Part shown: piece by piece, positions 2,727 to 3,860 of the stretch
Numbering within the stretch: position 1 is the first letter of the stretch
How the letters are laid out: every line of letters begins with the position of its first letter
IMG/VR virus record: IMGVR_UViG_3300046007_014531
Span: 1 to 36,051 of that record
Source of the DNA: a virus
DNA: 36,051 bases
Reading direction: 5' to 3' (one strand)
Program-made: the position numbers and the translations under genes
The notes under the pieces: generated by a model
What the model was told of the DNA's origin: nothing
The model's database searches: none
The model's input: the letters and a program-made list of their open reading frames with translations, nothing else

Positions 2727-2755
2727 CATTGTCAACAATGATACTTTAAAAGTAT
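2727..2755. promoter_or_regulatory. Tandem perfect palindromes in a divergent promoter region
   Basis: The 71-base gap between divergent genes holds two adjacent inverted repeats. One is CATTGT-CA-ACAATG (2727-2740). The other is ATACTTT-A-AAAGTAT (2741-2755), which runs into the ATG of the cytosine methyltransferase at 2754. No Shine-Dalgarno precedes that ATG. TGATACTTT could act as an extended -10, giving a leaderless transcript. The layout suits an operator that controls one or both divergent modification genes. Function is inferred. Confidence 0.5.
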
Positions 2756-3860
2756 GAATTGTTTAAGTTTATTTAGCGGCATCGGTGGTTTCGATTTAGG
2801 TTTCGAACGTGCCGGTATTCAAACGGTTGCCATGTGTGAAGCCGATAGCATTGCACGAAATATTTTACATAAACATTGGCCTGATGTGCCTGTGATAGAA
2901 GATGTGAGTGATTTAGATGGAAGAGAATATCGAACAGTTGAAATTATTTCAGGTGGATTCCCCTGCCAAGACATCTCAGTCGCAGGAAACAGAAAAGGTC
3001 TCGCAGGATCCAAGTCTGGGCTTTGGTGGGAGTTTTATCGAATCGTTTCTGAATCAATGCCAAAATGGGTTGTCATTGAAAACGTCGCTGGACTCATGTC
3101 TTCTGGAGGAAGACGGGACTTGGGTGCCATCATCGGGTCGTTGGGGGAACTCGGGTATTTGGGGGGGTATCGAGTGTTGGACGCTCGGTATTTCGGAGTG
3201 GCCCAGAGACGTAGAAGAATGTTTATTGTCGGAAGTCTTGGAAACAACGGTGGACAGAAAGTATTTTTTGAGTCAGAAGGCTTGCCAGGGGATCTTGAAA
3301 AGAGCAGACAAGAGGGGAAGAAAAATTCCGGAGCAGCTTTACAAAGCTCTTCAGAGAGTAGCAAATTGCTCGCAGAATCAGGAGTAGTTGGCAGTTTAAC
3401 TAAAAGTTTTGGTGGTGCTGGTGCCGACGCTCAACACGCTCAAAATGGTTGGCTGGTTCCGGTTCCTTTTGCGGAGAATCAGCGTTCTGAAGTTATCTAC
3501 ACTGATTTACCAACTTTAAGCACTGGTGGTGGAAAACCGGGGCAGGGTTATCCTGCAATTTTGAGCTATCCTAATAATAGTGGAACTGTGATGGCTAGTT
3601 GGGCGAAAGGGCCTGGGAACGCTCAGGTTGATGAAGGCCATGTTATCCCTTCTTTAGATTCACAGCAGAATTTAGAAGTGAGGAGATTGACTCCTGTTGA
3701 GTGTGAAAGATTGATGGGTTTACCGGATAATTGGACCAAGTTTGGGGCCGACGGTAAAACTATTGCAGATAGTCATCGTTATCGTTTTTGTGGTAATGCT
3801 GTTGTTTCAAATGTTGCTGAGTGGCTGGGTAAGCGAATTGTTGCAGTAGATCAATCGTAA
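2754..3860 (+). CDS. dcm: C5-cytosine DNA methyltransferase
   Basis: This 368-residue enzyme transfers a methyl group from SAM to C5 of cytosine in DNA. Motif I is LFSGIGGFDLGFE (6-18). The catalytic PCQ has its nucleophile at C71, ENV is motif VI at 109-111, and GVAQRRRR is motif VIII at about 148-155. The target-recognition region (about 170-300) is followed by the C-terminal motifs RLTPVECERLMGLPD and FCGNAVV. Length and motif order are normal for a phage orphan methyltransferase, and no partner restriction endonuclease is visible. Roughly residues 55-211 are encoded by DNA that is also open in the +1 frame (see the overlapping gene). The gene has no clear ribosome-binding site and its ATG lies inside a palindrome. 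Confidence 0.95.
   Translation: MNCLSLFSGIGGFDLGFERAGIQTVAMCEADSIARNILHKHWPDVPVIEDVSDLDGREYRTVEIISGGFPCQDISVAGNRKGLAGSKSGLWWEFYRIVSESMPKWVVIENVAGLMSSGGRRDLGAIIGSLGELGYLGGYRVLDARYFGVAQRRRRMFIVGSLGNNGGQKVFFESEGLPGDLEKSRQEGKKNSGAALQSSSESSKLLAESGVVGSLTKSFGGAGADAQHAQNGWLVPVPFAENQRSEVIYTDLPTLSTGGGKPGQGYPAILSYPNNSGTVMASWAKGPGNAQVDEGHVIPSLDSQQNLEVRRLTPVECERLMGLPDNWTKFGADGKTIADSHRYRFCGNAVVSNVAEWLGKRIVAVDQS
2917..3387 (+). CDS. Embedded overlapping gene inside the cytosine methyltransferase
   Basis: A 156-codon open frame, +1 relative to dcm, lies wholly inside it. Its product has features I recognise from phage hypothetical proteins associated with cytosine methyltransferases. There is an early SPAKTSQ segment (about 15-21), a central GLSLKTSLDSC, then LSEVLE and the C-terminal block YFLSQKACQGILKRADKRGR followed by KIPEQLYKAL. 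That last block recurs in phage proteins as a YFLSxxACxGILRRAxxRGK-type motif. Both frames therefore appear to carry recognisable family signatures. The dcm segment concerned also looks less AT-rich than its surroundings, as dual coding would require. No strong ribosome-binding site is seen before the ATG, so the start is uncertain. The function is unknown. Confidence 0.6.
   Translation: MEENIEQLKLFQVDSPAKTSQSQETEKVSQDPSLGFGGSFIESFLNQCQNGLSLKTSLDSCLLEEDGTWVPSSGRWGNSGIWGGIECWTLGISEWPRDVEECLLSEVLETTVDRKYFLSQKACQGILKRADKRGRKIPEQLYKALQRVANCSQNQE

Follow-up and report, generated by a model that had tools for sequence, protein, structure and literature searches.

The locus and its two reading frames

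The window considered here is the whole of a 36,051-nucleotide stretch of viral DNA (IMG/VR record IMGVR_UViG_3300046007_014531). On its plus strand, positions 2754..3860 carry dcm, a gene coding for a C5 cytosine DNA methyltransferase (C5-MTase) of 368 amino acids, referred to below as alpha, which is matched by PF00145 (4.5e-62) and TIGR00675 (2e-57) and has M.HhaI as its best PDB match. Motifs I to X of this protein all lie in one frame; motifs I, IV, VI, VIII, IX and X are present, as in members of the C5-MTase family, and the match to M.HhaI includes IX and X. Wholly inside dcm, in the +1 frame of the same strand, lies a second open reading frame (2917..3387), which starts with ATG, stays open for 156 codons and encodes a product of 156 amino acids, here called beta; codon-shuffle tests, synonymous-site constraint, homologues and a match to PHROG 16143 all bear on it. 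The DNA common to both frames extends from just upstream of motif IV to past motif VIII. It thus includes, on the plus strand, the segments for motif IV of alpha (PCQ, residues 70-72, with the catalytic Cys71; 2961..2969, where the +1 frame reads SPAKTS), motif VI (ENV, residues 109-111; 3078..3086) and motif VIII (QRRRR, residues 151-155; 3204..3218). Motif IX (RRLTPVECERLMGLPDNWT; 3681..3737, plus strand) falls outside the overlap, and motif X (the YRFCGNAVVSNVAEWLGKRI region) is encoded at 3780..3851 (plus strand). A preliminary description of this DNA had reported the 156-codon opening, its coincidence with motifs IV, VI and VIII, and four peptides in the +1 product (SPAKTSQ, GLSLKTSLDSC, LSEVLE and a block recognised from phage proteins). 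All of this was recovered, including the four peptides, and the recognised block (YFLSQKAC...KRADKRGR) is the most conserved portion of a very widespread family.

The C5-MTases carry a target-recognition domain in the region that matches alpha residues ~176-305 (3279..3668, plus strand). In the AlphaFold model of alpha, obtained with a 36-row alignment, a sound catalytic domain (residues ~1-175 and 310-368) encloses a region of little confident structure at ~176-305, with pLDDT mostly 27-62 against more than 90 in the flanks, although these low values may simply come from the shallow and heterogeneous alignment. In the case of beta, about 110 residues are predicted to be unfolded and are followed by a confident terminal helical hairpin; the N-terminal half is probably long and disordered. 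The basic hairpin (residues 113-150; 3253..3366, plus strand) contains KYFLSQKACQGILKRADKRGRKIPEQLYKALQ, has pLDDT values of 95-97 and holds the most conserved columns of the family. Its two predicted helices span residues 120-133 and 139-150, its consensus is YFLSxKACxGILRRAxKRGKxLP, and its median net charge in the family is +5. No meaningful match to beta was obtained in Pfam, in NCBIfam or among PDB structures, and the Foldseek search came back empty. As for PADLOC, no defence model was matched by the product from the window, and weak MTase_II matches were the only ones given by other members of a 78-row family alignment.

Two minus-strand genes lie on the other side of the dcm start. The first of them (234-1592), close to the C5-MTase, is ParB-like in its N-terminal part and of the DNA methyltransferase type in its C-terminal part (phrog_498, phrog_620). 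The second (1582-2682), divergently oriented and directly upstream of dcm, encodes a protein of 366 amino acids with no PHROG match.

Evidence that the nested frame is coding

Since both frames share the same DNA, similarity between +1 products could be a by-product of dcm conservation. The null model was therefore built by permuting synonymous codons within each dcm gene, which leaves the encoded protein and the codon use of the gene unchanged. Under this model, the 156 open codons of the window compare with a median of 38 and a 95th percentile of 84 (p=0.0015), while the +2 frame is unremarkable in the same shuffles (p=0.13). When 36 non-redundant loci were combined, Fisher's chi2 reached 404 on 72 df for the +1 frame and 62 on 72 df for the +2 frame, the former value being inflated because most of these loci had been picked by their +1 similarity. 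Openness alone was rejected as sufficient proof of a gene, and a family score was also used, in which the training sequences had less than 50% identity. The +1 product of the window scored 180.5 bits, compared with 52.5±11.0 for shuffles that keep the dcm protein, none of which matched it; when the shuffles were forced to stay open in +1, the figures were 171 bits and 64±11 (z 9.9). At 43 of 46 loci the real +1 score exceeded all 200 shuffles, with a median z of 10.6. The loci found by +1 similarity agree with a separate set chosen by dcm.

Part of the +1 resemblance is nevertheless a by-product of the dcm motifs. Shuffled genes still reach about 50-70 bits against the +1 family, whereas the real gene reaches 171-180, and the excess above the shuffles is real. 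Peptides such as SPAKTSQ in the N-terminal part were rejected as stand-alone evidence of a family because motif IV largely forces them. This free ride of much of the N-terminal similarity is an argument for a reading in which there is no gene at all, the open frame and the similarity resulting only from the conservation of dcm or from an RNA element. We regard the chance of this as practically negligible: the real score lies 100 bits above the shuffles, stops are avoided, conservation in the +1 frame is protein-like, synonymous constraint covers the whole overlap, and Dcm of E. coli K-12, a true negative, gave no +1 signal in the shuffle test (p=0.25).

Selection was examined at synonymous sites. 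In a +1 overlap, each third-position change in dcm is a second-position change in the nested gene. Four-fold divergence was 0.23 within the overlap and 0.54 outside it, and 82 of 83 disjoint family pairs agreed in direction; the sole exception, L058/L059, belongs to the sister class described below (class B, as opposed to class A, the type of the window). In a subset of 23 pairs, in which a few loci were used twice, the divergence was 0.17 in the overlap and 0.49 in the more N-terminal portion of this catalytic domain, a comparison region with even fewer amino-acid changes. Neither protein conservation nor mosaicism of the C-terminal part can therefore explain the low values. In the comparison of the window with its nearest relative, L001, four-fold differences amounted to 10 of 45 sites in the overlap and 15 of 28 outside (p=0.011).

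Translation signals have also been found. Shine-Dalgarno pairing of -6 kcal/mol or stronger precedes 43% of the first ATGs of nested ORFs and 14% of control ATGs, taken from elsewhere in the same genes (p=1e-8). The pairing at the beta start of the window is weak (-2.2 kcal/mol), and the dcm start of the window has none. Relative to motif IV, the starts of nested ORFs fall into two clusters. Both the enrichment at internal ATGs and this clustering speak against the alternative that frameshifting, and not internal initiation, yields the +1 product, which would then be attached to an N-terminal portion of alpha; such a mechanism, which could also serve to read the L036-like fusions that carry motifs IX-X in the +1 frame (see below), seems to us very improbable. 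Taken together, openness, family-score shuffles, four-fold sites and Shine-Dalgarno enrichment strongly support the extensive dual coding proposed at the outset: that 2917-3387 is a real, conserved overlapping gene is near certain. Beta would be translated in the phage of the window.

Distribution of the nested gene

The class A beta family is very widespread. The +1 product matched 187 phage records and, in a simple search, 52 viral contigs; a profile search matched more than 585 viral stretches and 102 bacterial ones. Another 536 matches were plasmid records, most of them from Escherichia and, where this was listed, P1-like. The family spans phage P1, the Omegavirus mycobacteriophages, pneumococcal phages and prophages of many bacterial phyla, and the register and stop position of beta are conserved from Streptococcus phages to P1. 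PHROG 16143, the main family matched, is hit by 63 of the 78 family members (best 1e-31); it represents the same +1 product in those genomes where annotators called a gene, although its label is only 'DNA methyltransferase' and the overlap goes unmentioned.

Phage P1 itself has a +1 ORF of 165 amino acids within Dmt. In the other P1-like, prophage and plasmid relatives examined from enterobacteria the ORF is intact; the two exceptions are a com-dcm locus with a degenerate copy and a plasmid in which an IS element cuts the ORF. In E. coli 2013C-4081 (L250, 3619-4825), a regulator of the Com family overlaps the start of dcm, as in com-mom of phage Mu, and the beta inside this dcm is degenerate and reduced in length. 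Another peculiarity was seen in a P1 dmt gene (OP279344; L085, 1416-4457), where the cytosine-MTase half is apparently interrupted at the Pro-Cys of motif IV by an intein-like insertion (PC-FTAGHMVLCKNGYKPIEDV...VVHN-CQAF); the dmt gene of the P1-like locus L253 is shorter than this one.

A match to beta was present in 240 of 250 loci, and all 248 matches are nested in the same +1 register of a C5-MTase. Stand-alone copies numbered 0 of 248 in the phage, viral, bacterial and plasmid searches, in which the best 80 matches per scan were considered and a distant copy could escape. Of the two observations that, according to the preliminary description, would speak against its proposal, one was made and the other was not: no homologue was found in the searched data outside DNA that overlaps dcm, whereas synonymous changes clearly do not break the +1 frame freely. 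The same description had offered, among several functions, an unrelated defence or anti-defence protein. Overprinted viral genes often have unrelated roles and alpha is complete, which would suit an independent protein, for anti-defence or host take-over, that happens to sit inside dcm. The lack of stand-alone copies among the 248 matches and of any meaningful match in PADLOC, Pfam or NCBIfam, together with the register and stop conserved between such distant phages, makes this quite improbable.

A sister class and fused lineages

Loci of the L056-L077 type had been taken as dcm controls without a nested gene. They comprised ten loci without a class A match and a few weak matches, and in an initial comparison their four-fold sites diverged to the same extent within the region equivalent to the overlap and beyond it. 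This control was dropped, and the loci were renamed class B, because the shuffle test revealed long +1 ORFs with motif IX at their end. By inspection, these ORFs end in LNPxWVEWLMGFPxGWTDL, which corresponds to C5-MTase motif IX, while in the main frame motif IX is missing and motif X is retained. Class B includes L056, L058, L063-L065, L069, L073-L077 and L339-L418. Of 90 class B loci analysed, all 90 are nested in +1; motif IX is found in 85 of 90 nested products and in 1 of 90 main products, and motif X is kept by 87 of 90 main products. In the shuffle test 30 of 30 loci lay above the null, and four-fold divergence was 0.23 in the overlap and 0.56 outside. More than 582 viral stretches were matched by the class B profile; these C5-MTases are very abundant in phages, and annotation of a single frame mostly misses them. 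In their N-terminal halves, the betas of the two classes resemble each other slightly more than expected, the class A and class B scores lying on average 1.9 and 1.1 z units above the null (3.7 for the window), a weak likeness that is suggestive only.

The division of motifs between frames also varies within class A. In two or three rare lineages, namely L036/L037 (two contigs, 99% alike) and the single contigs L282 and L159, the latter containing N bases, the nested ORF runs on into motifs IX-X and the main frame stops before them; in these fused lineages beta would supply essential motifs. A different arrangement was observed in Lucky2013 (gp113/gp114; L087, 2823-4023), L008, L012 and L018, where motifs IX-X of dcm occupy a separate overlapping ORF. 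In these four, a split like that of M.AquI is added to the nested beta, giving three polypeptides.

Comparison with known systems and proposed role

The arrangement is not wholly unknown. Lee, Kam and Shaw are said to have reported in 1995 that the beta gene of M.EcoHK31I lies wholly within the alpha gene in a different frame. In this enzyme (YGGCCR), two polypeptides form one C5-MTase; as summarised in PMC3404938, the large subunit has motifs I-VIII and X and the small subunit only motif IX. Compared by description, class B fits this published split. Nesting of beta is shared by the window and by every one of the 248 class A matches; in the window, on the other hand, motif IX is not in beta but stays in alpha, and beta ends in the YFLS hairpin. 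A second precedent is Streptococcus phage MM1 1998 (DQ113772), whose orf13 and orf14 were deposited as alpha and beta subunits of a C5 methyltransferase. There, orf14 occupies the +1 frame inside orf13, and its product is similar to that of the window, although this beta is divergent and has a shorter C-terminus; no experiment was found behind the subunit annotation. M.AquI is likewise a C5-MTase made of two polypeptides, and L008, L012 and Lucky2013 (gp113/gp114) resemble it in their separate IX-X ORF, but it is a single chain split end to end whose second gene, unlike beta, is not nested across motifs IV-VIII. Finally, the insertion in the methylase of phage ShiLan contains a hidden out-of-frame HNH endonuclease (PMC11855218). 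As with beta, a phage methylase gene conceals a second protein in a different frame, but that protein belongs to a mobile insertion of sporadic distribution and is not overprinted on catalytic motifs.

Among the functions first suggested, that of a methylase partner or specificity subunit has the best support, because beta is always nested in a C5-MTase, the sister class has motif IX in its beta and rare class A betas are fused to IX-X. The explanation that we consider probable is that beta is the nested subunit, and the obligate partner of alpha, in a form of two-subunit C5-MTase whose alpha retains both motif IX and motif X. Beta would be made by internal initiation on the dcm mRNA and would form a heterodimer with alpha, the two genes sharing one stretch of DNA in two frames on the plan of M.EcoHK31I; its hairpin would dock on alpha, on DNA or on both, and would supply or stabilise target recognition. 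We infer the heterodimer and the part in recognition. Since the AlphaFold model of alpha shows no folded region for target recognition, beta may supply this function. The stronger version, in which class A beta is the missing specificity subunit of a vast group of phage C5-MTases with alpha chains devoid of a target-recognition domain of their own, is possible but doubtful.

Having every catalytic motif, class A alpha might on the other hand work alone. Beta could then be real and yet not required for methylation, acting as a regulator or inhibitor of alpha that, for example, delays methylation or guards against toxic methylation. The presence of motifs I-X in a single frame agrees with such a role, strict genetic linkage would suit a dedicated regulator equally, and beta is small, with one folded hairpin. 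However, class B beta itself bears motif IX and a few betas of class A continue into IX-X, and a structural subunit fits these facts better, so that we hold a regulator to be rather unlikely.

Significance

The pair found in the window is likely to be a variant of the known two-subunit C5-MTase plan. For most such genes the annotation reads simply 'DNA methylase', yet in hundreds of phages and prophages, the laboratory phage P1 included, a further conserved gene of some 150 codons appears to span the catalytic motifs. To our knowledge, this is among the broadest same-strand overlaps known outside small viruses, and the hundreds of diverged homologues make the rules of dual coding testable. On the practical side, beta would be lost without notice when such an MTase is cloned or codon-optimised, and this could account for seemingly inactive orphan methylases of phages. 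If the role in recognition is true, specificity would rest with a protein whose gene is overprinted on the catalytic motifs, and catalysis and specificity would co-evolve within one stretch of DNA.
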